A stretch of 64,000 nucleotides of DNA from Bacteroidales bacterium (GTDB taxonomy: Bacteria; Bacteroidota; Bacteroidia; Bacteroidales; Paludibacteraceae), in the NCBI GenBank assembly GCA_012517575.1, contig JAAYUQ010000097.1, positions 1 through 64,000 on the forward strand, given 5' to 3'. Under the pieces are notes generated by a model that was not told the DNA's origin, searched no databases, and saw only the letters and a list, made by a program, of their open reading frames with translations. Below, in pieces: positions 4,904-41,075 of the stretch (its first letter is position 1; the number at the start of each line of letters is the position of its first letter). Both the position numbers and the translations under genes were made by a program.

Positions 4904-4916
4904 GCTGTTTGTTATA

Positions 4917-4932
4917 AATTGGTCGACCAATT
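4917..4932. promoter_or_regulatory. GntR-family operator (site O1), PL17 unit
   Basis: A perfect 16-bp palindrome, AATTGGTCGACCAATT, placed just downstream of the predicted transcription start (about +5 to +20). Its core TTGGTCGACCAA recurs upstream of the other PUL units and of the regulator gene. The T-G-G-T...A-C-C-A arrangement fits FadR-type GntR operators. Binding here would block initiation or early elongation. Confidence 0.8.
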
Positions 4933-13572: not shown

Positions 13573-13606
13573 TAAATTTAAATAGTTAAACTTTTAAAGT
13601 GAATTT

Positions 13607-16573
13607 TTATTTAGAAATAAGTTTCAAAACATATGATTTATTTGCTGAAATAATTTGGCAGAATAGCAAACCTTTTTGTTTTGTTGAAATTTTTATTTGT
13701 ATCATTCCTTCGTTTGTTTCTATTTCATTTTGCTGAATTTTTTCCCCCAGTATATTATAAAGTATTACTGTTATTTTCCCTGCTTTTGTATTGGATATCA
13801 TTAATTGTGTACTACCGTTGAAAGGATTAGGCATTACAGAAATTTCATTATTTACAATGTTTTTCCATCCTACAATTTCATTTAGCTCATAGGTATAATT
13901 TTCAGGTGCTTCTGGTCCTGCACTTGTTTCATCCATTGGACCGTTAACGACCGGGAAAGCAATATTGTATTCGTCTGCTCCAATGTCTCTTATTCCAATT
14001 GCCGGTTGTCCTTCAAAATCAGTCGTAACAAAATCATAAGCAGTAGAAGCATTTACAGCAGGACTAGAAACAGTCAATTTATAAAGCGAGAAAGGTAATT
14101 TATTTTCACAATCCTGATCGAAAGCTCTACAATCAGTAACAATCATTTGTGGATCAATATTTTTTACTTGTGTATCGTTGTAACTTGTTAAGCCAATGGT
14201 AGCAGTTTCAGTCGGATACAAAATGTTGTTTACAAAAGATACGCCTGCCAGTGAAGCTGAACTATAATATTTTACCAATGGATTGGCTATGGCCGTAATA
14301 ATATTGTTGGCAATCATACAGTTTATAGGAGGTTTTCTATAAGAACCGTTGTTATCGAAACCAATTTCTATATTCGATACATTGTTGATTAATGTATTGT
14401 TGGTAATGATAATATTTTCAGGTAAAAAATGACTGGACAGACTGGTAGATGAATTGGTTACATCTCCATTAGTAATTGTTAAGGCTGCATCCCATTTGTC
14501 ACCAGTAAGTTCTTCAAAATAATTGTTGAAGATTTTGTGGTTTAATCCATACATCCTTACACCACCACATCCAATAATTCCTCCATTGAAAAGTGCGGTT
14601 TTATTTTCTCCAAACATGAAATTACCCTCCACTACACTACCTCGGCCTTGACGTAAACAAATGGTCCCAAGGCAACGTCGAAAAGTATTGTGCCGAATGG
14701 TATCACAATTGCTTTTTATCGAAATAATTTCAGGATCTCCATCGCAATTTTCAAATAAATTATATTCCACTACCGTATAAGCATTGAGGTTGCTCAAATC
14801 GCTTACACCGATACGGATTGTTTCTTTTTCATTATCCACGCGAGGCGTATTATCTCTAAAAATATTATGATCAATCTTGTCGTGTTGTGAAATAGCAGGA
14901 ACTGTTCCATGACTACCATCAATGACAAGTAACGCTCCTATATCATGTTTGCCTTCAAAAAGATTATGATCAATTCTGTTGTGATGGCTTCTGCAAATTT
15001 CATTCTCCCATATTTCGCCTATTGTTATCCATTTCGAGTTTTTTGTAGCATCAGAATTCATGGTAAACCAGTTTCTAGTAATACGCACATAACTGCAACC
15101 TTCCATTTTGAAAATAGTGCTTACTGGACTGAGTTCAAATTTAAAACCCTCGTAAGTTACATAGCTTTGTCCCTGTGGATTGAAAAAAGAAGTGCCTGTA
15201 ATTTTTGCACCAAAAAGATTTTTCGATTTTATTAAAATTGGTTTTAAAGCTGAGCCTCCACGTGTTATTTTAATGCCACCGAGATTATAAGTTCCATCCA
15301 ACACCAAAATAGTATCACCAGGATTCATATTAGTCAACGCATCCTTGAATTGTGCAACGGTAGATACTATGCGTGTTATGGAAGAAACCTGAATTTCTGA
15401 AACTAATGCACCAATGTTTACTGGTCCCGATACAACAAAAGTAATGGGATTGGTTGTACCACTCAAATCTCCCGTCCAACCGTCAAATTGATAACCTGAC
15501 TGAAGTATTAAAGTAGCTTTTAAAGTAGTTCCTTCGTAATAGGTGGTTTGTTCTGGAGACAAGCTAATGGTAGCACCGATTGGTTGTGTTACTGTTACGG
15601 GATATTGAACAGGAGGATTTGATGGATCTACAACTACTGTTGCTCCAATAGAATAATTTTTATCCACGATAAACGTTTTCGGGTTTTCAGTTCCTGATAA
15701 ATCGCCTGTCCAACCGATAAAAAGGTAATGTTCGGGAACGGAAATAGAAACAGAGACTTCTTCGTTCAATTGATAAACCGATTTAAAAGGGGAAAGCGAA
15801 ATCACTCCGTATACCGGTTGAGTGATACTGATAGTTCGATCGGCAGAAGAAGCCTGAAAAGCTATATCGGAAATTGGTATTGTGCCAATATACATATCTT
15901 CAACAGCAATATCAGCCGTCCCTGCATTCATTGAGAATCGAATGGAATGAAAATCAAACGAAGTAGCGCCTCCCTTTATTTCCCTGAATGCAAATAGTTT
16001 ATTCTGAACAACCCCATCAATGGCATATTGACATTTGGTGCCTGTATTGTCGATTTTTATCGAAATTCTTTTCCATGTATTGGTAGTATAAAGCGGCTGT
16101 ATCGACCAACCAGAGTTACCGTCGTACAATTTTATTTTCCCCGACGGAAGAAATTCGAACATAAAACTACGACTACTGTATGTGCCCAAATCATACCCTG
16201 TAATGCTAAAATTGGCAGTAGGTAGTGATTTAATATTTATCCAGAAATCAATATAAACATCCCCACTTAATGCAGGTATATCGGAAGCATAGGCAATGTA
16301 TTCTGTCTGAAGCGAAGTCCCTTCAGAATAAATGCATAATGCTTGAGCACCGGTCTTTACATAATTTACATCATTGGTAACCAAACCATTCCCTGAGGTA
16401 ACTTTCCACTTGTTTTGATTGTTGATATTTCCCAACACATAACCTTCAGAATTTTCAAATGAAGTGTTCAGCACAATTTGAGCGCTCAGCGGTTCGATGA
16501 GGAGCAGCAGGGATTTCATCAGAATAACAAATCCGATTGCTGTTTTAATTCTATTTTTTGTTAGAACATTCAT
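13607..16573 (-). CDS. multidomain PL6 alginate lyase with LamG-like domain, bacterial repeats and T9SS signal
   Basis: 988 residues, first gene of unit 2. Domains: signal peptide (about 1-31), LamG/heparin lyase-like jelly roll (33-235), two tandem bacterial repeats (about 246-316 and 323-392, each with GWTGDLSGT.NP.TF), PL6 parallel beta-helix (about 400-890) and T9SS sorting domain (about 910-988, starting near SVMPNPFNGST). PL6 catalytic residues appear as GDPEIISIKS (Lys620) and CLRQGRGS (Arg641), slightly divergent from the LRHGN of the other two PL6 proteins, which may mean a different specificity. The added modules suggest attachment to insoluble substrate. Confidence 0.88.
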   Translation of the reverse strand: MNVLTKNRIKTAIGFVILMKSLLLLIEPLSAQIVLNTSFENSEGYVLGNINNQNKWKVTSGNGLVTNDVNYVKTGAQALCIYSEGTSLQTEYIAYASDIPALSGDVYIDFWINIKSLPTANFSITGYDLGTYSSRSFMFEFLPSGKIKLYDGNSGWSIQPLYTTNTWKRISIKIDNTGTKCQYAIDGVVQNKLFAFREIKGGATSFDFHSIRFSMNAGTADIAVEDMYIGTIPISDIAFQASSADRTISITQPVYGVISLSPFKSVYQLNEEVSVSISVPEHYLFIGWTGDLSGTENPKTFIVDKNYSIGATVVVDPSNPPVQYPVTVTQPIGATISLSPEQTTYYEGTTLKATLILQSGYQFDGWTGDLSGTTNPITFVVSGPVNIGALVSEIQVSSITRIVSTVAQFKDALTNMNPGDTILVLDGTYNLGGIKITRGGSALKPILIKSKNLFGAKITGTSFFNPQGQSYVTYEGFKFELSPVSTIFKMEGCSYVRITRNWFTMNSDATKNSKWITIGEIWENEICRSHHNRIDHNLFEGKHDIGALLVIDGSHGTVPAISQHDKIDHNIFRDNTPRVDNEKETIRIGVSDLSNLNAYTVVEYNLFENCDGDPEIISIKSNCDTIRHNTFRRCLGTICLRQGRGSVVEGNFMFGENKTALFNGGIIGCGGVRMYGLNHKIFNNYFEELTGDKWDAALTITNGDVTNSSTSLSSHFLPENIIITNNTLINNVSNIEIGFDNNGSYRKPPINCMIANNIITAIANPLVKYYSSASLAGVSFVNNILYPTETATIGLTSYNDTQVKNIDPQMIVTDCRAFDQDCENKLPFSLYKLTVSSPAVNASTAYDFVTTDFEGQPAIGIRDIGADEYNIAFPVVNGPMDETSAGPEAPENYTYELNEIVGWKNIVNNEISVMPNPFNGSTQLMISNTKAGKITVILYNILGEKIQQNEIETNEGMIQIKISTKQKGLLFCQIISANKSYVLKLISK

Positions 16574-16754: not shown

Positions 16755-17648
16755 CTATTTTTGAAAAACGGTTTTTGAAAGAAATTCCATCAACGCACGG
16801 TTAATTTCAGTTTTCTTTTCCTTATCAAAGCCACCATGCCCACCACCATCTACGGTAATAAACACGTTGTAAACGCCACACTGATCAAGTTTCTCATGTA
16901 AAGCAACCGATTGCTGATAAGGAACAATAGGATCGGCATTCCCATGCACAATGAATACGGGAGAGCTTGTTTTATTCACATATGTCAAAGGAGAAACTGA
17001 AGTGCGAAAAGATTGGTTGTCAACTTTATCTCCCAACCAGTTAGCGAGTGATTTCCATTTTTTAGCATCAATATTGTTTCCCGAAAAATCGGTTGGTGCA
17101 TAATTACTGACAATGGCAGCCACTCTCATATCAATGTTACTGGGACAATTAGTATCAAACTTGCGATCGTTTTCCAGCAAACCCGCCATCAGAGCCAAAT
17201 GTGCTCCGGCTGAACTTCCATCCACAACAATTTTATCGGGATTGATATTCAATTCTTTGGCATGAGTTTTTACATAAGTCAAGGCACAACGAACATCTTC
17301 GATAGCTGCAGGAGCCGGAGCTACCTGAACCAGTCTGTATTCTACATTTATTACTGCAAATCCGGCTTTAAACCAAGAGCCAAAGCCTGTTTGACTTTCT
17401 TTTGTGCCATGATTCCATCCGCCGCCATGGATATGAATTACAGCAGGTGTGGGCGAAACACTGGTTGGATTGTAATAAATGTCCATACGACCTTCCCAAT
17501 TGTTTACTCGGGTATATACAACATCCAATTTCGATTGATAATTTTCCGGAAACTTCACTTTTTTAATTTGCTCGCTTGGATTTTCTTGAGCGAAAATTCC
17601 AAAAATAATTGTCGAGAACAACAAGGTGGATAAAAGTACCTTTTTCAT
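16755..17648 (-). CDS. alpha/beta-hydrolase esterase (BD-FAE-like), secreted to periplasm
   Basis: 297 residues from the chosen ATG, which begins a signal peptide (1-20); an ATG 24 nt upstream would add MPFKNNLK and weaken it. Oxyanion motif HGGGWNHG (74-81), nucleophile Ser146 in GSSAG, Asp239 in HGNADPIVP and His271 in GGGHGGF make a complete triad. The family includes acetyl xylan and feruloyl esterases and tributyrin-active carboxylesterases. There is no sorting domain, so it likely acts in the periplasm on imported acylated oligosaccharides. It is the last gene of unit 1 and a close relative of the esterase domain encoded at 9060-11411. Confidence 0.8.
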   Translation of the reverse strand: MKKVLLSTLLFSTIIFGIFAQENPSEQIKKVKFPENYQSKLDVVYTRVNNWEGRMDIYYNPTSVSPTPAVIHIHGGGWNHGTKESQTGFGSWFKAGFAVINVEYRLVQVAPAPAAIEDVRCALTYVKTHAKELNINPDKIVVDGSSAGAHLALMAGLLENDRKFDTNCPSNIDMRVAAIVSNYAPTDFSGNNIDAKKWKSLANWLGDKVDNQSFRTSVSPLTYVNKTSSPVFIVHGNADPIVPYQQSVALHEKLDQCGVYNVFITVDGGGHGGFDKEKKTEINRALMEFLSKTVFQK

Positions 17649-17680
17649 TTTTAAATTGTTTTTAAATGGCATTTAATTCT

Positions 17681-19954
17681 TTATTTTATTTTACAAGTGA
17701 TTTTTTCACCCGGATTGAAAGGAGTTGAATTTCCAATTGTTTTTTCATTCATACTATTTGAAATACTCCCAGAAATATTCATCAGCACTTGCTGACAACC
17801 TAATGCAGAAATCAACACCGCATTTTCTTTCTCCTGTATAAAAATATCAGTCTCTTTTGAAAAGGTAAGTATTAAATTTTTTAGTGCTATTTTTTTGACA
17901 TTCAGCAAATAAGAATTTTGCGAATTACTGATAGAACAGAATCGATTCCCTTCGGCTGCAAACGAAAGCTGATTGACTTTCCAGCCTTTCAAATCCGGTT
18001 GAACTTCAAATTCGTTGATTCGATTGCCGTAGCCGTTGAAAGGAAAAATGACCGTTACAAAATTGAAGTCTTTTTCATCGTTTTTTTCAACAATGCTCCA
18101 CTGTTTACCTCTTGCACCCGATTGAGAAACTTGGCTGACAGGCAGCAATTGCAAAATATCACACCCCATTGCATCCGGGAAAACAGAACGGAGCAATTCA
18201 GGCTTTTTCTCAATCGTATAATGTCCCTGCCAAACTTGTTTGTAAGTGTGCAATTTATCAGAGGAAAAATTGTCTTTTATAATCCAGAAATCGTTTTTTA
18301 CAAAAATAACCTGACGCGAATAATCGACTCCTACATTTTTAAAACCATCATGGCTGCCAACAAAAATGTCATAGTTTTTATTGCTTTGCCAAAGAATGGT
18401 TTGAGGCTTGGGTAAAATGCCAAACTTTCCAAAACCTGTTTTTCCTTTGTTCGGAGTCCATTCTTTGCCTTGAAGCTCATTGTCTACCAAAGCCACATTT
18501 TTTACTAAAGAATTTTTAAATAATTCAAAATCAGGCAATTCGTAATAGACTTGATAATTTGGTAAAATAATTTTTCCGTTTGCCATCGCCTGCACGCCAA
18601 GCATGTCGCCATGTTGATGGTCGGGTTTGTTCGGGTCCAAACCTGCACTGATAATCATCATTTTGTCGTTTTTGTTCCAGCCTTGCCTCATAACATAATA
18701 GCGTGTATCGGGAAACGAAAGGGAGCTAAAAGAAGGTTTTTTCTTTTCAATAGCATTCAAAAGATTTAACTGTTTGTCTTGAAGGAACCAAAACATTCCA
18801 GCTTCAACCCGATTTTGTGCAAAATAGCCCAATTCAGGATCGTTAAAAAGCAAATATCCGAGCGTCATAGTTTCAGAAATATCTTCGGATTCCGCCCAAG
18901 TTCTGTCGGTGCAATCCTGCAATACAGGAGCCGACTTGTCGGGATAAGCAATTTTGGCAAGTGTCGTAAAAAGTGATTGTAATTTGTTTTTCCACACTTG
19001 ATTGACTTGAATTTGACTGATTTGTGCGAGTTGATATACATAAAAATAATTTTCAATATCACCCATGTGATAATGAACAGTGCGTTCAAACTGGAAACCA
19101 TCTGGATTCACTTCCCTTGTCAAATGTTCTTCCAAAATGCTCATTGAACGCTGATACCATAAATCAGTTCCCTTAAAGTCGCGTAAAAGAATGGATAGCA
19201 TTGCCAATGAAGACATTCCGCGTGTTTGATGATTTCCGGGACGATATTTCGGATTGTTTTCATACAAATTTTCACCGTGCTGTAATAATGTTGCAATGGT
19301 AACAAGTTGATCGTGGTCACTGTAATTTTTTTCTCCCAAAAACAGATTGTGAACGGTTAACCAATTCAAGACACGATATCCGGTTATGAAAACTTCAAAA
19401 ACGCCGTTTCCGCCTTCCACTTTTTCATATTTCCCGGACTTTAATGCATCAATCAGTGAATTACGCTGATTAATAAAGTATTGAAGATAAACCGGATTTT
19501 TCTGATCATAAAAATAGGCAAATCCAACGTCTACCATTTTATGCTGTCGGGCAAGATGTTGAAAAGGATGTGGTTTTACCGCTTCGCCGTTAGGATGATT
19601 GAAAGGTAATAGCCAGGAAGTTGTCGCTGAAAAGTCGGTCATCAGTTCCTTAGCACGGCTTAAATGACCGGACTCGTTATCATACAATTGCCTGTACTGT
19701 TGAAAACGAGACGGAACGGAATGCCAATCGTAAAAGAAACGTTCCGCAAACTTTTGCCGAAAGTATTCCGTTAACACAGTTTCAGTGATTTTCCCGTTTT
19801 TCGACAGTTTGTTTTTCACACTGTCATTCAGGTATTGAGCCAAATTTTCAGGAGAAATAACCACATCTGACGGAATTCGTTGTTGTGCAAAAAGGAATGA
19901 TCCGCAAAAAAAGCAAATGGCGGAAGTTAAAATTTTCAACTTATCAAAATTCAT
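17681..19954 (-). CDS. heparinase II/III family polysaccharide lyase, subfamily undetermined
   Basis: 757 residues with signal peptide (1-23), helical toroid and C-terminal beta-sheet domains of the heparinase II/III superfamily. Candidate catalytic segments are RPGNHQTRG (Asn241-His242), FQFERTVHYHMG (His294, Tyr295, His296) and PDHQHGDMLGVQA (His447/His449). It differs clearly from the PL17 protein encoded at 2684-4903, without NHATWATA or GPYYQRYA. Families with this architecture include PL12, PL15, PL21 and PL39; PL15 and PL39 contain alginate lyases, so one of these is plausible. No sorting domain: probably periplasmic. Confidence 0.75.
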   Translation of the reverse strand: MNFDKLKILTSAICFFCGSFLFAQQRIPSDVVISPENLAQYLNDSVKNKLSKNGKITETVLTEYFRQKFAERFFYDWHSVPSRFQQYRQLYDNESGHLSRAKELMTDFSATTSWLLPFNHPNGEAVKPHPFQHLARQHKMVDVGFAYFYDQKNPVYLQYFINQRNSLIDALKSGKYEKVEGGNGVFEVFITGYRVLNWLTVHNLFLGEKNYSDHDQLVTIATLLQHGENLYENNPKYRPGNHQTRGMSSLAMLSILLRDFKGTDLWYQRSMSILEEHLTREVNPDGFQFERTVHYHMGDIENYFYVYQLAQISQIQVNQVWKNKLQSLFTTLAKIAYPDKSAPVLQDCTDRTWAESEDISETMTLGYLLFNDPELGYFAQNRVEAGMFWFLQDKQLNLLNAIEKKKPSFSSLSFPDTRYYVMRQGWNKNDKMMIISAGLDPNKPDHQHGDMLGVQAMANGKIILPNYQVYYELPDFELFKNSLVKNVALVDNELQGKEWTPNKGKTGFGKFGILPKPQTILWQSNKNYDIFVGSHDGFKNVGVDYSRQVIFVKNDFWIIKDNFSSDKLHTYKQVWQGHYTIEKKPELLRSVFPDAMGCDILQLLPVSQVSQSGARGKQWSIVEKNDEKDFNFVTVIFPFNGYGNRINEFEVQPDLKGWKVNQLSFAAEGNRFCSISNSQNSYLLNVKKIALKNLILTFSKETDIFIQEKENAVLISALGCQQVLMNISGSISNSMNEKTIGNSTPFNPGEKITCKIK

Positions 19955-19992: not shown

Positions 19993-20943
19993 TTATGCTT
20001 CTTCCCAAAGTTGTTGAATGGTTTTCAAATCTTTTGTCATAACATCAAATACCACCTGCGGATAAACCGATATTTTTCTATTTCCCTTTTCTGCTCCTCC
20101 CAAATCGTATTCGCAATGCAATGAGATGGGAACGTTGATACGATATTTTTTCAAAAGCTTGAAGTAATTTTTAAAATCAACCATTCCTTCGCCAATCGGA
20201 GTGTTAATTATTTGCCATTTTCCATTTATCTTTCCCCATTTATAATCTTTCAGTACAATAGTTTTTATTTGAGGTCGTATCAACTCAAAGCCATTGATCC
20301 ACGAATTGGCTCCTTCGACCATTGCATGCCGAATGTCGTATTGCACGCCAAAATAATCCTTGTTTACTTTTTCGAGTATTTTATAAACTTCCCACAGAGA
20401 AGCGCCAACCAGTGTCCCAGCATGATTTTGATAGCAACCAACAATTCCCAGTTTTCGGTTCAATTCGCTGAGTTCTTTCAAATTTGAAGCATACATTTCC
20501 AATGCTTCCGGTTGCGATTTATCGACCGGATATTTGAACCAGTTGGTGCGATAAAAAGGAATTTTGCATTTAGCGGCAGTTTCTATTACATTTCGATCCT
20601 GTTCGTTATGAACATTTTCTATTGTTGTCGACAACATTACGCAAGTTGAGCCTCCTTTTCTTATTTCGTTGACAGCTTTTGGCAAATCCGTTTCTACAGT
20701 AGCAGGTTCTACATGACCATTCTTACGAACGGTTAAATCTAAACCGGCAAAACCCATTTCAGCTGTTTTTTCTCCTAACGATTGCCAATCGAGAAATTGA
20801 AGATGCTTGGAAAAAATGCAAACCGGCAATTTTTCGGGAACACTTCCCATTGCCCACAATTTCTCATTTATTCCTAACAGTGGAATAGAACCGACTGTCA
20901 ACAGGCTTCTTTTTAAAAATTCTCTTCTTGTTATGCTTTCCAT
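19993..20943 (-). CDS. sugar phosphate isomerase/epimerase-like TIM barrel with Tat signal
   Basis: 316 residues. The N-terminus ITRREFLKRSLLTVGS carries a twin-arginine motif (Arg6-Arg7) followed by a hydrophobic stretch, so it is predicted to be exported folded by the Tat system. The rest matches the xylose isomerase-like/AP endonuclease 2 TIM barrel: FAGLDLTVRKNGHV (early strand), QNHAG near the middle, YDIRHAM, VLKDYKWG and HCEYDLGG, which supply the metal-binding His/Glu/Asp residues typical of the fold. The substrate is not deducible; such proteins act on sugars or cyclitols and often occur in PULs. Confidence 0.7.
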   Translation of the reverse strand: MESITRREFLKRSLLTVGSIPLLGINEKLWAMGSVPEKLPVCIFSKHLQFLDWQSLGEKTAEMGFAGLDLTVRKNGHVEPATVETDLPKAVNEIRKGGSTCVMLSTTIENVHNEQDRNVIETAAKCKIPFYRTNWFKYPVDKSQPEALEMYASNLKELSELNRKLGIVGCYQNHAGTLVGASLWEVYKILEKVNKDYFGVQYDIRHAMVEGANSWINGFELIRPQIKTIVLKDYKWGKINGKWQIINTPIGEGMVDFKNYFKLLKKYRINVPISLHCEYDLGGAEKGNRKISVYPQVVFDVMTKDLKTIQQLWEEA

Positions 20944-21072: not shown

Positions 21073-22176
21073 CTAAGGTTGAATAAGCAGTTTTTTCGAG
21101 ATAATGCCGAAAGAAGTTTTCATATTTAAAAGATATATACCTGCCGACATATTTCCTAAGTCCAATTGTGCTTGATGATCTCCAGCCGGTAAATTATTAT
21201 AAGAGGAAAATTCTTTTACCGCTTGACCATTAAGCAACATACAACTAAATGTCACATCTGAAGGTTCGTTTAAGTTGAAGTTGACTTTTAATTTTTTGTT
21301 TTTTGAATCATTAAAGAAAAAGAATTTGGTGCTTTCTAAAACTTGGTTATTTAAATTTGTCGAATGAACTTCTTCTATCGAGAAATCGGCAAAGCGTACG
21401 GATTCATCCCTTAAATCTTGACTGGATAAAAGACTTCTGTAAATTCCCCATTTGGGACGAATAAAATTATTGTCAGGTCGAATGGTTAACAATTTATTAT
21501 TTTCATAACTGAGCAATAGGGAATTATCGCCAACTCTTTTTATTGACATGGAGTAAGTTCCGGTTACCGAATCAATTTTTATTTTTTCTGTAACTTCAAC
21601 CCATGAATTTTCCAACCAAGAGAGATAGATAGTTTTTAATTTGATAGCGCTCTGATTGGAACTTTCGTAATAATTCAGTTCCAATTTGTTGGGATTTCCT
21701 TTCCTTGCTGTTAGAGCAAAGATGGGCGTATCTTCATCTCCGCCGACTGGTTTAATTTGATGAAGATGGGTGAAATTGGATGAAGGTTGAAATCCCGCAG
21801 GAATTTTAAAAAGCCATTTGTAAATTACTGTTTCGCCACTTATTCCTTTCAAATTGTCCGGTGACGGTTCATACGTTTTAATTTCTACCCGTTGCCGGTC
21901 AAAATTGATACAACGGTCATTATCAGGAGTTACATGGAGGTAAAATTCAAAAACATATTTCTGTAAATCAGCATCCCAAACTTCGACAATATGACGACCA
22001 AACTCAGGATGAGCACAATCGGGGGTTTCAACCACATTACCGCCATTTGGGGCAAAAACGCTGTTAATCAATTCGTAGGTATTTCCCGGCCCATCTGCTT
22101 CCAATAAAATCTGAGATTTTATAGAAAAGACGGAAAAAATGATAAACATTAGAATAATGAGATATTTATTTTTCAT
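21073..22176 (-). CDS. secreted jelly-roll polysaccharide lyase-like protein with T9SS sorting domain
   Basis: 367 residues: signal peptide (1-21), a beta-jelly-roll domain (about 22-275) and a T9SS sorting domain (about 285-367, SAGIYLLNMKTSFG). The jelly roll has RQRVEIK (94-100), HLHQIK (137-142) and RPKWGIYRS (about 243-251), the set of conserved Arg/Gln/His strand residues found in heparin lyase-like and glucuronan lyase (PL20-like, PL13-like) folds. I read it as a candidate lyase; a non-catalytic carbohydrate-binding role remains possible. Codes between the GH88 and the Tat protein in unit 1. Confidence 0.62.
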   Translation of the reverse strand: MKNKYLIILMFIIFSVFSIKSQILLEADGPGNTYELINSVFAPNGGNVVETPDCAHPEFGRHIVEVWDADLQKYVFEFYLHVTPDNDRCINFDRQRVEIKTYEPSPDNLKGISGETVIYKWLFKIPAGFQPSSNFTHLHQIKPVGGDEDTPIFALTARKGNPNKLELNYYESSNQSAIKLKTIYLSWLENSWVEVTEKIKIDSVTGTYSMSIKRVGDNSLLLSYENNKLLTIRPDNNFIRPKWGIYRSLLSSQDLRDESVRFADFSIEEVHSTNLNNQVLESTKFFFFNDSKNKKLKVNFNLNEPSDVTFSCMLLNGQAVKEFSSYNNLPAGDHQAQLDLGNMSAGIYLLNMKTSFGIISKKLLIQP

Positions 22177-22270: not shown

Positions 22271-23452
22271 TTATTTTTTGTATTTGATGTATCGCTGCAA
22301 GGCTTCTAAAAAATAATAATCGGCGTAGGAAAGCGGAACATCAATTTCACTTTTAGCCGGATAGTTGCCCGTAGAATGCTTTAGAATAAACAATCCGTTT
22401 TCTCCTTTTTTTGCAAGATATTTATCCGACGATAAATTTTTTAAAATAAGAGCAGCAGTATTGAAATATTCTGAATTATTTGAAAAACTACACAATTCAA
22501 TTAAAGCAGAAGCCATAATAGTGGCAGCGGATACATCTCTTGGTTCATTTGGAATATTGGGTGCATCATAATCCCAATATGGTATCTTGTCTTTCGGTAA
22601 ACGAGGATGATTTAATAAAAAAGAAGCAATTTTTTCTGCTTGATGTAAATACTCAACTTTTCCCGTTTCACGATACATCATGGTAAAACCATATAGCGCC
22701 CATGATTGTCCCCTTGCCCACGAAGAATTATCGCTAAAACCTTGAACGGTTTGCTTATGTAGAACATTTCCCGAAATGCTGTCATAATCCACTAAATGGA
22801 AACAACTGAAATCGGAACGGAAATGATTTTTCATCGTTTTGTTGGAATGAGAAATTGCAGCATTCATCATCAATGAGTTGTTCGTCATTTTTCCGACATT
22901 CATCAAAAATTCCAAATTCATCATGTTATCAATGATAACCGGATATTGCCAATTGCCGAAATCCCAAGATTTGATGCATCCAACTTTGGAATTAAACCGT
23001 CTAATCAATGAATTTGCTCCATTTATCAAAACCGTTTTATATTCTGGATTTTGTGTGATTCGAAAACCATTTCCATAACTGCAATTTAAAATAAAACCTA
23101 AATCATGTGTGTTTGTTCGAAATTGAGCATTGCTCACAAAAGTTGTAAAATGTTTAGCCGCATTTTCAAATTTTTTATCCCCTGTTAATTCAAATAAATA
23201 CCACAGACTTCCCGGGAAAAAACCACTTGTCCAATCTTTATAAGATACCAAAATGACTTTACCATTTTCATATGTTCTGGGATTTTTATTGGAATCATTG
23301 AACTGTTTTATGGCAGCTGAAAGTTGAACTTCCGACCTTGTAATTGCTTTTTGTAACCATTTCTCTCTCATCGGATTTTTTGGTGAGAGAGAAAATGGGA
23401 ACAAAAAAATGAATAACAATAAAGAAATCAAAAATCGCTTAACTTTTATCAT
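22271..23452 (-). CDS. GH88 unsaturated beta-glucuronyl hydrolase
   Basis: 393 residues, N-terminal signal peptide or anchor (about 6-23), then an (alpha/alpha)6 barrel. GH88 signatures are intact: DWTSGFFPGSLWY (73-85), THDLGF with Asp117, IIDNMMNLE with Asp175, SSWARGQSW and DVSAATIMASAL. Asp117 and Asp175 correspond to the two catalytic aspartates of characterised unsaturated glucuronyl hydrolases, which hydrate the 4,5-unsaturated non-reducing uronate left by lyases on glycosaminoglycans and related glycans. This enzyme is not required for plain alginate, so its presence in the operon bears on the true substrate. Confidence 0.88.
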   Translation of the reverse strand: MIKVKRFLISLLLFIFLFPFSLSPKNPMREKWLQKAITRSEVQLSAAIKQFNDSNKNPRTYENGKVILVSYKDWTSGFFPGSLWYLFELTGDKKFENAAKHFTTFVSNAQFRTNTHDLGFILNCSYGNGFRITQNPEYKTVLINGANSLIRRFNSKVGCIKSWDFGNWQYPVIIDNMMNLEFLMNVGKMTNNSLMMNAAISHSNKTMKNHFRSDFSCFHLVDYDSISGNVLHKQTVQGFSDNSSWARGQSWALYGFTMMYRETGKVEYLHQAEKIASFLLNHPRLPKDKIPYWDYDAPNIPNEPRDVSAATIMASALIELCSFSNNSEYFNTAALILKNLSSDKYLAKKGENGLFILKHSTGNYPAKSEIDVPLSYADYYFLEALQRYIKYKK

Positions 23453-23481: not shown

Positions 23482-25869
23482 TTATTTCAAACCAATATTT
23501 CCCCCATCAGTAGCTTTACCTATTAATGAGGACTTTTTGGAAAGGAGAAAACTATTTTTCTCGAATCGTGGATTATCGAAATAAAGATTCTGTGAAACTG
23601 CTCCGTTTTCTACTTTTGGCGCCGGAGAATTGTAAAAACAGCAGTTTTGAATTAAGTTTTTACTCCCCGAAAGTTTAACACTTGTTTTTGCCATTGAGTT
23701 GGAAAAAATGGAATTGGCAATGGAAACATTTACTATACCATTTAATTTTAATATAGACTGTTTTTCATCTTCTCCGATATTGTTAAAAACGCAATGATTT
23801 ACAAAAAGAGAACCTCCTAAAGTTGATTCGTCATTTCCACCTCGATAATAATCCAAAGCGTGTTGACTGAAGTTGTCGAAAACACAATTTTCAAATTTCA
23901 CTATTTCTGCATTGTAAGTACCTTTGTCATCTTTTTCTTCACTCAGACTAAATCCACGAAAACAATCTTTCATTAAAGAATTGGTTACTACAATAGAATC
24001 TGCATACGAACCTTTGTAAGCGCGATAAATGCTGCCTGTTTTAACTTTGAAGTCTGAGATTTCGCATTGATTCAGCATTAAGGAAAAATGTGCAGCACCT
24101 TCGCGAGAAGAAATAAAGGCATATTTGGTCGGAAAATTTGATTCGCTGTTACCATCAATTTTTACACCTTCAAGTTGTAATTTTACATTATTTGAAATTT
24201 CAAAAATGTAAGCATTTTCTTTGTCGGCTTTCAAAATAATAATTGGCTTTACCTTATTGTCAGCTGATCTGATAACCAAATTTTGGTTAATAGTCATTTT
24301 TTTTGTAACCACATGTTCACCGGGCATCAATAACAAGGTGTCGTTATCGCCGGCATTTTTTACGGATTTTAAAAGTAGATCCACTCCGGCTTCAATTACT
24401 TTGAGTTTCCCGGTGCGTTTCGCCAACTGCTTTGGTTCAGTCATCCTATTTTCATACTCTGTTGGTCCGCAATTTTGCATGGTTGCCATTTCATTGGTTA
24501 TTTTTTCTGCTTTGTTTTGAAATGCGCCAATGACCGGAACTGTTCTGGGTTGTCCCACAATATCTTCTTTTACAAAAGCAATTTTTTTTGCAGCAATAGT
24601 AGTATATATAATTTCCAAATCATTCAGTTTTGACTGAAGAATTTCACCTTTTACCGTTCCTTTTATTTCCAAGTTTCCCTTGTTATTTATCAGAATATTG
24701 TTGTCCAGCATTATCCCGTCTGTCTGATCGTAATATTTAATCAATTCATCGGTATTTGGACAATAAACCAAATTATTTAATAACAAGGTGTTCTCCGGCT
24801 TCGCAATACGGTTACGAAATCCAATTCCTACTCCAAATGACCAAGGGGATGTACAATCATAATACGTATTATTGGCAACAATTACATTTTTTACGGGAGC
24901 ATAACCATTAGCTGGTGAATTTGGTATTCCATTCATAATTGCCAAACTTGAACGAAAATCATCGCCTGCTAAACGAAAAAAATAATTATTGAAAATCTTG
25001 TGTCCTTCATTGATAACTCTCACACCTCCAGTATTTGGTTTTTTATTGCCGATAAACCAGTTACCGGAAACAGTGGCATTGTTTCCATGACGAAGTACCA
25101 AACTGCCTTCGCATTCATAAAAGGTATTGTTGATAAATACATTATCGCACGACTTGTTCGAAATAATTTCTGTTTCACCATTACAATGTTCAAAATAATT
25201 GCCTTTCACAATTGTTCCTGAACTGTTCATGCAAACCTCACTGGTGCCAATGCGGATGGTTTCTCCACCGTTGGAACCCAGTCGAGGCCGAAATCCAAAA
25301 TAATTTCTATAAATTAAATGCTGATTGTTGATAGAATTCTCGTCATCGGGACAAACGATTAATGTAGTTCCCAGATTTGTTTTGCCCGCAAAATAACAAT
25401 TTTTTATCGTGTTTTTTTGTCCATAAAGTGCAACCCAATGGTCGGTAGAATCTTTCACTTCCTGATTGTATTGGTCAATGACACATTCGGTTAAAACTGA
25501 ATTAAAGGCATATTCTTTGGAACCTGTTCTAAACTCAATTACTGTCTTTCTTGGAGTGTGACCATTTCGGAATACAAGACCGGAAACATACAACCAGTTT
25601 CCCGACATTCTCAAGCACGATTCTCCTTCCAAACTCACTTTACCCGGATTTTCAGCCAGAAGATAGATGTATTTGTTTTTCTCCCCATTTCCCTTGAACA
25701 CCAACTGCCCATCTTTCCATATTCCATTGCTCAGAATAATGCTGTCGCCGGGTAATAGCAATTTTGATTTTTCATTAAATTGGTACACGTTCATGACTTT
25801 ATAACTTGTTCCCAAAATCACCGAAAAGGGGAGAAGCATGAACAATAAAATACCGATTGTTTTTTTCAT
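23482..25869 (-). CDS. PL6 family alginate lyase, two beta-helix domains, periplasmic
   Basis: 795 residues with signal peptide (1-20). The first parallel beta-helix (about 22-450) has NGETEIISNKS with catalytic Lys239 and LVLRHGNN with Arg260, textbook PL6. A second beta-helix (about 505-790) follows, as in the two-domain PL6 enzymes such as AlyGC-type exolyases. There is no T9SS sorting domain, unlike the two PL6 proteins of unit 2, so it probably works in the periplasm on imported oligosaccharides. Position between the SGBP-like lipoprotein and GH88 in unit 1 fits this. Confidence 0.88.
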   Translation of the reverse strand: MKKTIGILLFMLLPFSVILGTSYKVMNVYQFNEKSKLLLPGDSIILSNGIWKDGQLVFKGNGEKNKYIYLLAENPGKVSLEGESCLRMSGNWLYVSGLVFRNGHTPRKTVIEFRTGSKEYAFNSVLTECVIDQYNQEVKDSTDHWVALYGQKNTIKNCYFAGKTNLGTTLIVCPDDENSINNQHLIYRNYFGFRPRLGSNGGETIRIGTSEVCMNSSGTIVKGNYFEHCNGETEIISNKSCDNVFINNTFYECEGSLVLRHGNNATVSGNWFIGNKKPNTGGVRVINEGHKIFNNYFFRLAGDDFRSSLAIMNGIPNSPANGYAPVKNVIVANNTYYDCTSPWSFGVGIGFRNRIAKPENTLLLNNLVYCPNTDELIKYYDQTDGIMLDNNILINNKGNLEIKGTVKGEILQSKLNDLEIIYTTIAAKKIAFVKEDIVGQPRTVPVIGAFQNKAEKITNEMATMQNCGPTEYENRMTEPKQLAKRTGKLKVIEAGVDLLLKSVKNAGDNDTLLLMPGEHVVTKKMTINQNLVIRSADNKVKPIIILKADKENAYIFEISNNVKLQLEGVKIDGNSESNFPTKYAFISSREGAAHFSLMLNQCEISDFKVKTGSIYRAYKGSYADSIVVTNSLMKDCFRGFSLSEEKDDKGTYNAEIVKFENCVFDNFSQHALDYYRGGNDESTLGGSLFVNHCVFNNIGEDEKQSILKLNGIVNVSIANSIFSNSMAKTSVKLSGSKNLIQNCCFYNSPAPKVENGAVSQNLYFDNPRFEKNSFLLSKKSSLIGKATDGGNIGLK

Positions 25870-25912: not shown

Positions 25913-26518
25913 TTACTTGATAATGGAAGCTAAAAAATTATTTTTTGCTTCCTCCAATTTTTGTATCGCTTCCTGTACTTGTCTTTCGATAGTATAAGAA
26001 GAATCGCGTACTCTCTTGGCAGCTGTGATAGCATCTGAGAACGCAGTCGCAGCTTCGCTTGAAACTTGTCCCGTTTCGGTGCCTATGGATGTGGCTGCCA
26101 ACAAATTTTGAGCTGCAACGATAGCGTCATTTAGTGGACGTCTATCTGAAATCCATAGGTTGCTATTAAATTGTTTGCCGGGATCAGCTAAAGTTTCATT
26201 TGCATTAACAATATCGGCAATGGTTAAGTCGGTTTTTGCCAATACTGCTTCGGCAGCGAGTAATGTATTTAAATAATTGTCCTTCAGTGCATTGAAGTTC
26301 GTCGGATCACTTGAGTATTTAAAATCTCCCTTGTTGTAACCCATTACGCAATTTTGAACTTTGGTCTTTTCTGCCAACACAAATTGACCAAGATCTTGCT
26401 TATATTGTTCCAAAGTTTTTGGAACAATCTCATTTTTATCTTCGTTCGAGCAGGAATTCATTACTGCAATAATTCCAATTAATGCGAAAAATTGGAACAC
26501 TTTTTTTATTTTTTTCAT
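25913..26518 (-). CDS. SGBP-like lipoprotein, helical, FIVAR-like
   Basis: 201 residues. The signal peptide ends in a lipobox (VMNSC, Cys23) followed by SNED, which would export it to the outer surface. The mature part is predicted all-helical with alternating Ala-rich helices (NETLADPG, DAIVAAQNLLAAT, AFSDAITAAKRV), reminiscent of FIVAR or DUF4972-type domains of Bacteroidetes lipoproteins. Encoded directly after SusD, the usual place of a surface glycan-binding protein. No sequence family is recognised with certainty; the binding role is inferred from position. Confidence 0.6.
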   Translation of the reverse strand: MKKIKKVFQFFALIGIIAVMNSCSNEDKNEIVPKTLEQYKQDLGQFVLAEKTKVQNCVMGYNKGDFKYSSDPTNFNALKDNYLNTLLAAEAVLAKTDLTIADIVNANETLADPGKQFNSNLWISDRRPLNDAIVAAQNLLAATSIGTETGQVSSEAATAFSDAITAAKRVRDSSYTIERQVQEAIQKLEEAKNNFLASIIK

Positions 26519-26533
26519 AACATTATGATTTTT

Positions 26534-28072
26534 TTAATATGAAAGATTTTGTGGAATTTTCATTTCGTTGTTGGTGTCAATTTCAGCTTGAGGAATCGGG
26601 AGCAACAATCTTTCCTTTATATAAAATCTTTTTTCAGGCGGTTGCATTGGATTGTATTTCGAATAAAGCACAGCCCAATCTTTTTCAAAAGTATGCTTCC
26701 TTAAAATCTCCATCGGTTTGTCCGGATTGTCATACGATTTAGCCATGCGAAGCAAATCAAACCAACGCTGATTTTCAAAAGCAAGCTCCAAACGCCTTTC
26801 GGCATAAACCGAATCCAAAGCTTCTTCTTTTGACCCAAAAGGCCCAATTCCATCTAATCCGGCTCTATCTCTAACATCATTAAGCGGATTGTGCGCATTA
26901 GCAAAATTTCCATCCTGAGCCAAAATTTCGGCATAAAGTAGTTTTATATCGGCAAAACGCAAAATAATCCAGTCATTTTCACCTTGCAGGGGTTGTGTCA
27001 TCGAAGCGTCTATGTATTTTGATATATAAGGAACGGAAACGGTTGATGATTTTTTCCATACTCTAAAACACGCATCCTTACGAGTATCGTTGGGATTAGC
27101 ATTAAACAAGTTCATCAACTCATAGGTAGGATTATTATATCCAAGTGGCGTTCCTATTTTCAAAAACATATTTGCGGAACCCAAAGGTGCAAAAGTGCCC
27201 CAGAAAGGTGAACCAATGCCGGAACTACCTCCTTTGTATCGTACAGCAAAAATAATTTCCTTGTTCATTTCATTGGTAATACTGAAAATATTGGAATAGG
27301 CATTGGCACCTGTTAATAAACCATGAGGCGATAGTGTTAAAATATCTTCCAATTCTTTTTTAGCCAAAGATAAATTATTTGTTCCTCCCATCATCATATA
27401 AGCTTTGGCCAACATTCCTTTGGCAGCCCATTTGGTGGCTCTTCCCAAGTCTGTTGCTGAGTAGGTGGAAGGTAATTCTTCAACTGCCTTTTTCAAATCG
27501 GGAATGATAATTTCATTATAGATTTCAGAAACCGGCGAACGAGGAATTTTTTTTGCTTCATTGGGCCCAATTACTTTGGTTATTTTAAACATGTCGCCAA
27601 ATAAGTTTACCAATGTGTAATAATGATAACCTCTCAAAAACAAAAGTTCACCTTCATATTGTGCTCTGAGTGATTCATTTGAAACATAACTATTATCTTT
27701 TACAGAAGGAAGTACTGCGTTAATATTGGAAATATTCTGGAAAATTTTATACCAATAATCACGTAAGGCAGGTAAACTTGGAGAAAGTCTAAAAGAAGCT
27801 ATATCGGTTTGATCGATTCTAATTGTTGCACTCGAGCCTGTTTCACTTTGGCACGAATTATCGCTTCTAAGTTCGGTATACATCCATTCATCTTTCTGTA
27901 TGTTCGCGAGTCCGGCATAGCAGCCTATTACTCCCTGATTAATTCGTGTAGGAGTTGTGTAAAAATCAACCTGTGTAAGTACTGATTCGGGTTTGTCGGT
28001 CAGAAAATCTTCACAACCTGTGAAAAAGAATCCACACAGAAGAATTGCATTTATAAATATTTTATTTTTCAT
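26534..28072 (-). CDS. susD: RagB/SusD family outer-membrane glycan-binding lipoprotein
   Basis: 512 residues; lipobox FTGC in the first 20 residues, then the SusD N-terminal opening EDFLTDKPESVLTQVDFYTTP. TPR-like helices and the C-terminal SusD signature (NDVRDRAGL, YAERRLELAFENQRWFDLLRM, LLLPIPQAEIDTN) are complete. It forms the lid of the SusC pore and delivers oligosaccharide to it. Begins 36 nt after the susC stop, in the same operon. Confidence 0.93.
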   Translation of the reverse strand: MKNKIFINAILLCGFFFTGCEDFLTDKPESVLTQVDFYTTPTRINQGVIGCYAGLANIQKDEWMYTELRSDNSCQSETGSSATIRIDQTDIASFRLSPSLPALRDYWYKIFQNISNINAVLPSVKDNSYVSNESLRAQYEGELLFLRGYHYYTLVNLFGDMFKITKVIGPNEAKKIPRSPVSEIYNEIIIPDLKKAVEELPSTYSATDLGRATKWAAKGMLAKAYMMMGGTNNLSLAKKELEDILTLSPHGLLTGANAYSNIFSITNEMNKEIIFAVRYKGGSSGIGSPFWGTFAPLGSANMFLKIGTPLGYNNPTYELMNLFNANPNDTRKDACFRVWKKSSTVSVPYISKYIDASMTQPLQGENDWIILRFADIKLLYAEILAQDGNFANAHNPLNDVRDRAGLDGIGPFGSKEEALDSVYAERRLELAFENQRWFDLLRMAKSYDNPDKPMEILRKHTFEKDWAVLYSKYNPMQPPEKRFYIKERLLLPIPQAEIDTNNEMKIPQNLSY

Positions 28073-28108: not shown

Positions 28109-31100
28109 TTAAAAAGTAATGTCTAATCCACCTGTAATGGTACGATTCAAAGGGAAAGCACCACGTTGATAACCATCTACCAATGGGCTGGTGTAGTTGC
28201 TTGCTGTTCTTCTTGCTTCAGGATTAATGCCTCTATAACTCGGCGCCATGATATAAACCAAATTTTCGGCAGAAAAATATACTCTTAAATTTCTTAATTT
28301 CAATGATTTCAATAAATTTTGAGGTAAAGTATAACCCAAAGTAAAATCACGAATTGCACCATAAGAACCATCTTCTATGCAGTAGTCCGTCAACATTAAA
28401 TCGCTACCGGAAGTAGTATTGGAATAAACGGTTTTTCCATCACCAGGAAACATGGGACTCACATATCGATTGTCGGTGTAGGCCTTGTTGTAGCGCAGTT
28501 GTTCATTATAATTTACATTACCATTGATAATGTCAATACCTTGAACGCCCTGAATCAGAAAGCTTAAATCAAAGTTTTTGTAAGTGAAAGTATTGGTTAT
28601 TCCCCAAGTAAAATCGGGGAATGGATCTCCTAATACAGTTCGGTCTTCAGTGTCAATTTTATTATCGCCATTGATATTCACCACTTTTATTCCTCCTACA
28701 ATCGGAGCAAATTTCGTGTAAGTAAACGGATTGCCATTTTCATCTTTAAGTGCTTTTGCTGCGGCTACTTCTTCAAAAGAAGTATATACGCCATCAGTTT
28801 TATAACCGTAATACTGGATGGCCGGTTGCCCCACAATGGCACGATAGACTTCACTTCTTTCTCCGAAATTGTCTTCATATTCCTTGTCTCCGTAATTTAA
28901 GAGCTTATTTTTGTTGGTGGCAAAATTCGCTGTTGTTTTCCATGTAAATTTTTTATTGGTGATATTGGTTGTATTGAGTTCTATTTCGATTCCTTTGTTG
29001 TTTACCTTCCCAATATTGTTCCAATATGATTGATGTCCGGTAATATACATGGCGGGTTGTTGAAGCAGCAATTGAATAGTGTTGGAATTGTAGTATTCTA
29101 TTGTAAAGTTAATTTTGCTATTCAAAATTCCAAAATCTATTCCGTAATTGGCTTCAGATGTTTGTTCCCACGTAATATCGGGATTTCCTAATGAAGAACT
29201 GTTAGAAACCATTCCTTGTACCAATGTTCCATTTCCTGAACCCAGTACGTAATTGCTTGTGTTAATGGTATTCATGTAGGCATATTGAGGAATGTTGTTA
29301 TTTCCTGTCAATCCATAACTGAAGCGTAATTTCAAATTGGATAACCATTCAAAATTCTTCATGAATTTTTCTTCAGATGCACGCCAACCGGCTGAGAATG
29401 CTGGGAAAGTGCCCCATTTGTTTCCCTTGTAAAACTTTGAGCTTCCATCTGCCCTGAAACTGGCAGACATCATATATTTGCCCAGATAAGAATAATTAAG
29501 TCGACCCAGGAGAGAAACCAGCGATTCGGTATAATAAAAAGAGGTTGTTCCATCAATAGAAGGGCTGTCTAATAAAATTTGAGAAGCAAGGTTGAAAGAA
29601 AGAATTTGTTCGTCGGGGAAATTTGTTCCTACCATTCTGTTGTAATTGTCATTGGTTTGCTGCATGGTAAAACCCAATAATGCATCAAATTCATGATTGC
29701 TGATTTTCTTATTATAGTTTAGCGTATTTTCTGAAAGTAATTCCCTATGTGTTGTCAATTGTCGGGTAAGTGAATTTGGATTTCCAGCTTTGTTGGCAGA
29801 AGTTTGTTCTTTTTTGTTGTATTCCCTGAATAATAGATATGCGCCATTGGATGTTTTAAACTGTAAACCGGGTAAAAGATTCAAAGTCAAATAGATATTT
29901 CCCTGAAATCTATAATCGTCAGTAAATATACTGGTACGTTCCCTAATAGAAACTGGATTTTGATTACTTGAATTCCAAACCGAAACTCCTGGTAAGCTCC
30001 ACACTTCATCATCATAACCTATGCCACTGATATTTATCCCGTTAAAGTCGCTTGGTTGTGCATAGTCTCCGGCAACTTTACCGGTTAAAGCAGCGGTTGC
30101 TTCATTGTGCCTGATTGGTAACCATGAAGGGAACCGCATATAATCGGTCAAGTCAACTGCCGGTCGTTCTTGGCGACTATAAGTTGGAGCAAGATTAATT
30201 CCTAAGGTGGCAATTTTTGATAACTTGGCATCTAATTTGGCTCTAAAGGTAAATTTGTCATAGGTACTGTTCAACATAATGCCGTCTTCATTGACATAAT
30301 TTCCAGAAACAAAATACTTTAAATTCTTGTCTCCTCCCGAAGCGCTCAACTGGTAATTCTGCATGGTTCCACGATCTCTCAACCCTTCATCAAGCCAGTC
30401 GGTTGGTTGATCATCCAAATATTTCATAATCAAATATCCGGCTTTTTCGGGTTCGGTTATTTTATTAAATGCCATTGTTTCGGTAGAAATTCCATTAACG
30501 GCAGGGTCCTGCTTTCTCATGGCTGCTTCCCGGTAGAGAAGAGCTACATAATCTTCTGTGCTTAGCATATCTGGAAGTTTCAATGCATTGCGAAAACCTG
30601 AATACATTTTGAAATTGTATTTGGGTTTATTGGTCTCTCCACTTTTAGTGGTGATTAGTATTACTCCTCCTGCAGCTCTTGAACCATAAAGGGCAGCAGA
30701 AGAAGCATCTTTCAGAACTTCAACCGATTGAACATCTGCCATACTGATCATAGATAAGCCATCGGGGACAGGAAAACCATCTATTACTATGAGAGGATCG
30801 CTACTTGCACTGATCGATCCCAAGCCACGAACACGAATTTTTGGTGCAGCTCCGGCTTCGGGATTTACATTGTTGATTTGAACTCCGGCAATTTTACCCT
30901 GTAGTGCCTGATCTACTCTGGAAACCGGAATTTCATCCATTTTCTCGTTTTTCAAAGAAGAAACAGCTCCCGTTAAATGCGATTTTTTCTGAGTACCGTA
31001 AGCAACTACAACTACTTCGTCAATGGTTTGGGTTTCTTCTTCCATTACTACATTGAGTTGTCCACTGGCAGGTATTGTTTTTTCTATTGTTTTGTAACCA

Positions 31101-31348
31101 ATGTAAGAAAATACCAATATGGATTGCCTGTTTGGTACTTCAATATTAAATTTTCCATTGAAATCGGAAATTGTTCCTGTTTTGGAGCCTTTTACTGTTA
31201 TATTGACGCCAATTAAAGGCTCACTTTTATTGTCCAATACAGTTCCCGTAACTTTAATTTGAGAAAATGCACTGATTGTACTAATAAATAAAGCTATTAA
31301 TACAAGAAACTCTCTTTTTAAGATTTTTGGTTTTTTTGTTCTTTTCAT
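28109..31348 (-). CDS. susC: SusC/RagA family TonB-dependent oligosaccharide transporter
   Basis: About 1079 residues from the ATG chosen because it starts a standard signal peptide (MKRTKKPKILKREFLVLIALF); the frame stays open 66 nt upstream. Order: carboxypeptidase-regulatory-like domain (KVTGTVLDNKSEPLIGVNITVKG), TonB-box region (DEVVVVAYGTQKK), plug domain (SVEVLKDASSAALYGSRAAGGVILITTK) and a 22-strand barrel ending in LNRTITGGLDITF. It imports lyase products across the outer membrane with energy from TonB. First gene of unit 1; the 5' UTR from the predicted start at about 31475 is near 125 nt. Confidence 0.95.
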   Translation of the reverse strand: MKRTKKPKILKREFLVLIALFISTISAFSQIKVTGTVLDNKSEPLIGVNITVKGSKTGTISDFNGKFNIEVPNRQSILVFSYIGYKTIEKTIPASGQLNVVMEEETQTIDEVVVVAYGTQKKSHLTGAVSSLKNEKMDEIPVSRVDQALQGKIAGVQINNVNPEAGAAPKIRVRGLGSISASSDPLIVIDGFPVPDGLSMISMADVQSVEVLKDASSAALYGSRAAGGVILITTKSGETNKPKYNFKMYSGFRNALKLPDMLSTEDYVALLYREAAMRKQDPAVNGISTETMAFNKITEPEKAGYLIMKYLDDQPTDWLDEGLRDRGTMQNYQLSASGGDKNLKYFVSGNYVNEDGIMLNSTYDKFTFRAKLDAKLSKIATLGINLAPTYSRQERPAVDLTDYMRFPSWLPIRHNEATAALTGKVAGDYAQPSDFNGINISGIGYDDEVWSLPGVSVWNSSNQNPVSIRERTSIFTDDYRFQGNIYLTLNLLPGLQFKTSNGAYLLFREYNKKEQTSANKAGNPNSLTRQLTTHRELLSENTLNYNKKISNHEFDALLGFTMQQTNDNYNRMVGTNFPDEQILSFNLASQILLDSPSIDGTTSFYYTESLVSLLGRLNYSYLGKYMMSASFRADGSSKFYKGNKWGTFPAFSAGWRASEEKFMKNFEWLSNLKLRFSYGLTGNNNIPQYAYMNTINTSNYVLGSGNGTLVQGMVSNSSSLGNPDITWEQTSEANYGIDFGILNSKINFTIEYYNSNTIQLLLQQPAMYITGHQSYWNNIGKVNNKGIEIELNTTNITNKKFTWKTTANFATNKNKLLNYGDKEYEDNFGERSEVYRAIVGQPAIQYYGYKTDGVYTSFEEVAAAKALKDENGNPFTYTKFAPIVGGIKVVNINGDNKIDTEDRTVLGDPFPDFTWGITNTFTYKNFDLSFLIQGVQGIDIINGNVNYNEQLRYNKAYTDNRYVSPMFPGDGKTVYSNTTSGSDLMLTDYCIEDGSYGAIRDFTLGYTLPQNLLKSLKLRNLRVYFSAENLVYIMAPSYRGINPEARRTASNYTSPLVDGYQRGAFPLNRTITGGLDITF

Positions 31349-31455
31349 GTTTTTATGGTTTTTAATTTTCAAATTGTTCTGCATTAAATACTTAAATATA
31401 TAACAAGGAATCAATAAATTGCTTTTATTTAGCTATGAACTTAATAAGAAAAAAA

Positions 31456-41052: not shown

Positions 41053-41075
41053 CAATAAACTTAAAGGAACAATTA

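Follow-up and report, generated by a model that had tools for sequence, protein, structure and literature searches.

A predicted unsaturated glucuronyl hydrolase of family GH88 in an alginate-type PUL of a Bacteroidales bacterium, and the association of GH88 with PL38

Introduction

Known GH88 enzymes serve glycosaminoglycan (GAG), gellan or xanthan systems, whereas the GH88 gene described here sits in an alginate-type PUL. The nearest GH88s outside its own close set are found in chondroitin- or heparin-type PULs, which differ from the present locus in that their lyases are of the PL8 or heparinase type and, in two cases, are accompanied by sulfatases. The alginate utilisation loci (AULs) of Bacteroides eggerthii and B. 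ovatus CP926 resemble our PUL in the presence of GntR, SusCD, MFS, KdgF, PL6_1 and PL17_2, with PL38 in B. ovatus, and the downstream part of our PUL is close in content to the B. ovatus CP926 locus; however, GH88 is nowhere mentioned in that report (PMC11381880). To the Bacteroides set our PUL adds GH88, two further PL6 genes, a HepC-like lyase, the jelly-roll protein PLjr, a TIM-barrel protein and two esterases. The operon of Verruconatronum alginivorum is similar in combining GH88 with KdgF/KdgA-type genes. It was raised on alginate, in proteomes with one replicate per treatment, and its GH88 was labelled an alginate oligomer hydrolase. It differs from our locus in that the enzyme is described as cytoplasmic and belongs to a non-canonical PUL of Verrucomicrobiota (PMC13274419).

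Results

The GH88 gene is intact and under selection

The window, i.e. the whole stretch of 64,000 nucleotides that was analysed, contains the GH88 gene at the position given in Table 1. The ORF has an ATG start and a stop within these coordinates, and the plus strand of the same interval is full of stops. The protein matched the Pfam profile PF07470 (Glyco_hydro_88) with 47 bits (E 2.3e-12; cut-off 26.6), and none of the NCBIfam models matched it at E 0.001. Among the solved chains, 3wiw_A ('Glycosyl hydrolase family 88') was the closest, aligning over residues 30-393 at E 2.5e-125; it corresponds to the enzyme reported from Pedobacter heparinus as specific for heparin. Seven other solved chains, annotated as unsaturated glucuronyl or chondroitin hydrolases or as gbs1889, followed with E values of 6e-47 to 3e-45. 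The match to the unsaturated glucuronyl hydrolases of the family (3wiw, 2zzr, 1vd5 and related chains) is near full-length, with the catalytic columns kept.

In the alignment of 118 GH88 rows, 57 columns were near-invariant (at least 97% one residue), and the protein keeps 56 of them, the sole departure being S203 for A. H116-D117 and D175 are present. Across the 113 rows that do not belong to the set of our GH88, W74, H116, D117, W163, H219, W245, R247, W251, Y254 and Y376 never vary, and D175 and Q237 are kept in 112; we assume, from the Bacillus and Streptococcus enzymes, that these columns make up the active site. The statement of the initial annotation that both aspartates (D117 and D175) and the GH88 motifs are intact was therefore borne out, and the enzyme itself is, as predicted from its sequence, an ordinary, canonical unsaturated glucuronyl hydrolase. 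The N-terminus, as judged by eye, has a hydrophobic signal-like stretch without cysteine, and therefore the enzyme is probably periplasmic. A plasmid search for GH88 returned 17 records, every one below 60% identity.

It is very improbable that the gene is a leftover passenger without a present role. Such a view could draw on the absence from the window of the PL38-2 and GH2 genes that accompany GH88 in three relatives, and on the 80% identity between the GH88 of the window and its closest relative in locus L033 (L-numbers denote loci of relatives and G-numbers genomes), the second lowest among the 20 genes of the PUL. However, with a dN/dS of 0.086 in this comparison, GH88 falls inside the span of 0.027-0.217 seen for the rest of the PUL, which implies that the gene is maintained, and the catalytic columns are kept. 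GH88 is an intact gene under selection.

The surrounding PUL has the gene content of an alginate utilisation locus

GH88 is one of 20 genes that lie on one strand from 85 to 32406 and form an alginate-type PUL (Table 1). SusC/D are accompanied by PL6, PL17 and PL38 lyases and by GntR, MFS and KdgF-like cupin genes, the cupin being assigned by Pfam only. By its gene content the PUL would be an AUL, and as such it would be induced by alginate and needed for alginate use. PL6a matches the alginate lyase 8bwk with an E value of 7e-116 and chondroitinase B with 2e-24. PL38-1 is a putative member of PL38 through its match to 8bdq/3nfv, chains of that family.

Table 1. Coordinates of the PUL genes in the window and of the one-frame PL38/GH88 fusions in loci of relatives.
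Feature	Coordinates	Strand	Remarks
SDR oxidoreductase	85..837	-	candidate DEH reductase (putative role)
MFS transporter	859..2322	-	
Cupin	2319..2672	-	candidate KdgF (putative role); adjoins MFS as in Bacteroides alginate PULs; Pfam only
PL17	2684..4930	-	oligoalginate lyase
PL6c	4999..6741	-	lyase
Protein of no assigned family	6819..7847	-	T9SS-tail match below cut-off
PL38-1	7885..9063	-	best match 3nfv ('alginate lyase'); clusters with PL38s from alginate operons
EstB	9060..11411	-	BD-FAE esterase; T9SS-tail match at its cut-off
fn3-domain protein	11476..13572	-	T9SS-tail match below cut-off
PL6b	13607..16573	-	PL6 lyase carrying an InlB-type repeat and a T9SS tail
EstA	16755..17672	-	BD-FAE type esterase
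HepC-like lyase	17681..19954	-	heparinase II/III fold
AP_endonuc_2 TIM-barrel protein	19993..20943	-	twin-arginine-like N-terminus (read by eye)
PLjr	21073..22176	-	lyase-like protein with a jelly roll; matches to PF14099 and to a T9SS tail fall below their cut-offs
GH88	22271..23452	-	unsaturated (glucuronyl) hydrolase, 393 aa; Pfam, solved chains, alignment
PL6a	23482..25869	-	two-domain PL6 lyase nearest alginate lyases 8bwk, 7dmk; 29 bp from GH88
Small lipoprotein-like protein	25913..26518	-	adjoins SusD; FIVAR match below cut-off
SusD	26534..28072	-	
SusC	28109..31414	-	TonB-dependent transporter
GntR/FCD regulator	31660..32406	-	
PL38/GH88 fusion	L153:3750-6152		
PL38/GH88 fusion	L154:3924-6332		
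PL38/GH88 fusion	L155:4635-6989		
PL38/GH88 fusion	L156:4642-7056		
PL38/GH88 fusion	L157:5098-7464		
PL38/GH88 fusion	L052:1036-4278		
PL38/GH88 fusion	L083:8663-11095		

According to Pfam, the unit is as the initial annotation had described it: alginate-type, with a second heparinase-fold lyase and a jelly-roll protein, and with no sulfatase gene found within the PUL (85-32406). Three sulfatases are encoded outside the PUL in the genome, whose assembly spans 2.5 Mb, comprises 160 contigs and is 89% complete. The genome also encodes KduI with a neighbouring SDR, both of which would suit glucuronate use, and a GH28 locus with a second GH88-family gene that looks pectin-like. We rejected KduI as proof of glucuronate use, since the pectin-like GH28 locus explains the presence of KduI and the SDR equally well.

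The fn3 and PL6b genes (11476-16573) had dS values of 0.15 and 0.25 against L144/L033, and the other 18 PUL genes ranged from 0.55 to 2.28, which suggests a recent exchange or conversion of this segment. The TIM-barrel protein recurs in the alginate-type loci of L033, G002 and G401 (L171:13633-14577).

Relatives that share the unit

In the FastTree phylogeny of the 118 GH88s, the protein of the window forms one set, with support 100, with those of L033, L034, L035 and G002, all encoded in PULs with PL6a. SusC, SusD, PL6a, PLjr and GH88 are common to the five PULs. L033 matches the unit of the window gene for gene, its alginate part being on the same contig. In G002 the PUL likewise extends from GntR to SDR, but it includes a small number of additional genes and lacks HepC-like and EstA; a T9SS protein and PL38-2 lie just upstream of its GH88, and GH2 lies downstream. 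In L034 and L035, PL38-2 likewise precedes GH88 and GH2 follows it, whereas both genes are absent from the window and L033. PL17 homologues occur in all five genomes, on another contig than the GH88 unit in those of L034 and L035. In the L034 genome the GH88 unit has unrelated genes on both sides, so that it is separate from the alginate part, and in the L035 genome the unit runs near a contig end.

Two of these relatives also bear on the possibility that the substrate of the unit is a uronate glycan, GAG-like or algal, that is both sulfated and branched, the lineage of the window being a derived one without sulfatases. The only sulfatase found in the L034 genome lies directly beside GH88, in a unit with a radical SAM/SPASM protein, a candidate maturase, and a PL7-type alginate lyase, and the L035 contig carries three sulfatases, GH2 and GH29. 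In addition, the next supported GH88 set (97) adds five rows (L036, L067, L096, L112 and L032), and in the first four, which were inspected, GH88 adjoins PL8 and three sulfatases (L036), three sulfatases (L067) or heparinase-type genes (L096 and L112). Against this, sulfatase genes are lacking both in the PUL of the window and on the contigs that carry the PUL in L033 and G002, and PL6a matches an alginate lyase much more closely than it matches chondroitinase B. We regard a sulfated glycan as improbable. At the same time, the argument of the initial annotation that a missing sulfatase speaks against a sulfated GAG is weak: the absence is real in this PUL, but it says little because the orthologous PULs of L034 and L035 carry sulfatases.

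GH88 is associated with PL38

Neighbouring genes were recorded for 80 named loci, the best 80 of 582 GH88 relatives, some without full 10 kb flanks. The genes were labelled with HMMs built in this analysis, and ten out of ten PL6 labels checked in Pfam held. A PL6 HMM also matched a 1688-aa protein in G297 (L142:5918-10984), for which Pfam gives CBM96 only. A separate PL38 gene was present in 24 of the 80 loci, directly adjacent to GH88 on the same strand in 16; this count skipped the GH88 frame itself, so that the fusion in L083 was left out and L052 was counted through its separate PL38. PL6 was found in 4/80 and PL17 in 0/80 of the same loci at the cut used.

Among 295 genomes of the order, that of the window included, a GH88 of the window's group occurred in 55, PL38 in 21 and both in 18. 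PL38 lay within 3 kb of GH88 at 11 of 30 places, compared to 0.13 expected from rounded genome sizes. Moreover, single-frame fusions of PL38 and GH88, with frames read from stop to stop and three checked in Pfam, were detected in seven genomes and in both orders: GH88-PL38 in G064 and G006, and PL38-GH88 in G133, G139, G211, L052 and L083. In the GH88 tree, the group labelled as fused wrongly takes in L006 and omits L052 and L083. In G641 (L175), an alginate operon is followed by PL38 and by a GH88-GH2 fusion of 1184 aa (L175:13396-18174), which is not among the rows of the GH88 tree. G239 (L158) has SusCD, PL6, PL38, GH88, an esterase and PL6, and since its GH88 is on a different branch of the tree than that of the window, the combination of PL38-GH88 with genes of the alginate type seems to have arisen repeatedly.

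PL38 lies beside GH88 in L034, L035 and G002. In the window, GH88 has PL6a as its neighbour, and 13 kb separate GH88 from the single PL38 found. The PL38 tree gives no further guidance: fused and GH88-adjacent PL38s occur on each of its two main branches, and PL38s of alginate operons, together with PL38-1, share one of these. Among the published PL38s, two act on alginate, two on glucuronan and one on hyaluronan (PMC13027841). Because these specificities are mixed, the PL38-GH88 link points to the product of a uronate lyase but does not name the uronate. The association makes a link to another uronate polymer plausible.

The HepC-like lyase and PLjr

The second heparinase-fold lyase had been regarded as a hint of a second polymer, and this hint failed. 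Its homologues were followed in 395 genomes of the phylum, and nine neighbourhoods other than that in the window were fetched: PL17 was present in six, the seventh had PL6 and KdgA/KdgK, the eighth (G536) shares its contig with an alginate operon, and the ninth, near a contig end, had GntR-type genes only; GH88 occurred in one of the nine. A search of the order gave one other match, G117, on an 11.7 kb contig with PL7, PL6 and KdgK-/KdgA-type genes and without GH88. As the homologues sit mostly in alginate operons, the HepC-like lyase belongs with alginate; PL12 is also mentioned for an alginate PUL in a published account (PMC12323373). We considered the HepC-like protein as the lyase that replaces PL38-2 for GH88 and rejected it, its homologues, including that of G117, being mostly in alginate operons without GH88.

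The hint taken from the jelly-roll protein points in both directions. In L102, a locus in which PL6 was not found, PLjr is one gene away from GH88, whereas in G002 it is joined to CBM96 (L116:8030-9928), a family founded on an alginate-binding module (PMC9971899). In eight PLjr neighbourhoods outside the window, PL6 occurred in three, GH88 in two and neither in three. The PF14099 match reached 21 bits, below the cut-off of 29.9. The predicted fold gave tied VIA matches, Z 17.9 for heparin lyase I (3.5 A over 217 residues), 17.8 for GH131 and 17.4 for glucuronan lyase, with PL14, PL36 and PL7 chains about 1.5 to 3 Z below; the fold favours a glucuronan lyase no more than the other two. Clostridial toxin binding domains proposed by Foldseek (15-20 A rmsd) were set aside. 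The affiliation of PLjr, to the alginate or to the GH88 side, is ambiguous.

Discussion

We consider it about 50% probable that GH88 is the surviving hydrolase of a PL38-2/GH88/GH2 glucuronate cassette that was joined to an alginate PUL, and that it acts on a glucuronate polymer. The secreted PL6b and EstB, and perhaps PLjr, would open and deacetylate the uronate polymer outside the cell, SusC/D would import the oligomers, and periplasmic lyases would shorten them. PL17 would release the alginate monomer, and GH88 would take the unsaturated glucuronate cap off oligomers in the periplasm. Its substrate could be a glucuronate-containing polymer, glucuronan-like or mixed and probably acetylated, that is taken up with alginate. 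As the window has neither PL38-2 nor GH2, GH88 would there depend on PL38-1 or on imported oligomers for its substrate.

Unsaturated glucuronate is favoured because the conserved columns match those of glucuronyl hydrolases and the near GH88s outside the set occur in chondroitin- or heparin-type loci. Against it, PL38-2 is missing from the window, a dedicated glucuronate lyase could not be named there, the specificity of PL38 being mixed, and the greater part of the remaining PUL genes speaks for alginate, as does the PL7-type lyase in the L034 unit. The suggestion of the initial annotation that a second uronate polymer is processed is thus plausible through the PL38-GH88 association and draws no support from the HepC-like lyase.

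The same alginate-type features raise a rather unlikely alternative, in which GH88 would act on alginate as a hydrolytic exo-enzyme that removes the unsaturated mannuronate or guluronate cap from oligomers beside PL17. PL6a, which matches alginate lyases, is in all five PULs of the set, and the CBM96 joined to PLjr in G002, the PL7-type lyase of L034 and the GH88 in the alginate-induced operon of V. alginivorum point the same way. The five GH88s also have R112 in common, four residues before H116 and present in less than 8% of the other rows. On the other hand, the unsaturated residue derived from alginate has another configuration at C2 than that derived from glucuronate, and the conserved columns are unchanged from glucuronyl hydrolases. 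Each of the five genomes has PL17 homologues. Around the best 80 of the 582 GH88 relatives, PL17 was not found and PL6 was rare. The initial annotation had held that plain alginate use does not require GH88; the Bacteroides AULs agree with this, but the alginate-induced operon of V. alginivorum (PMC13274419) makes the absence of GH88 from alginate systems less than universal.

A specific form of this alternative, which we judge unlikely, is that the five-member set has exchanged unsaturated glucuronate as its substrate for the C2 epimer, the unsaturated mannuronate of alginate, possibly via R112, and would work as a non-lyase, hydrolytic alginate exo-enzyme. The PL38-GH88 fusions would then be one-polypeptide machines for both chain cutting and cap removal. 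On sequence alone, the substrate of GH88 may be unsaturated glucuronate or the unsaturated mannuronate that alginate itself yields.

The interest of this setting of GH88 lies in its link with PL38 and in a possible role in alginate use. Should PL17 and a glucuronyl hydrolase operate side by side in alginate PULs, loci rich in PL6 and PL17 are not readable as alginate-only, and there would be either a co-degraded glucuronate polymer or a hydrolytic step in alginate breakdown. In the fusions, the GH88 half would name the kind of product that comes from the PL38 half, which would help to assign specificity in this mixed family.

Beyond the PUL, the window carries a tmRNA gene at 40656-41053 with the tag GETNYALAA.
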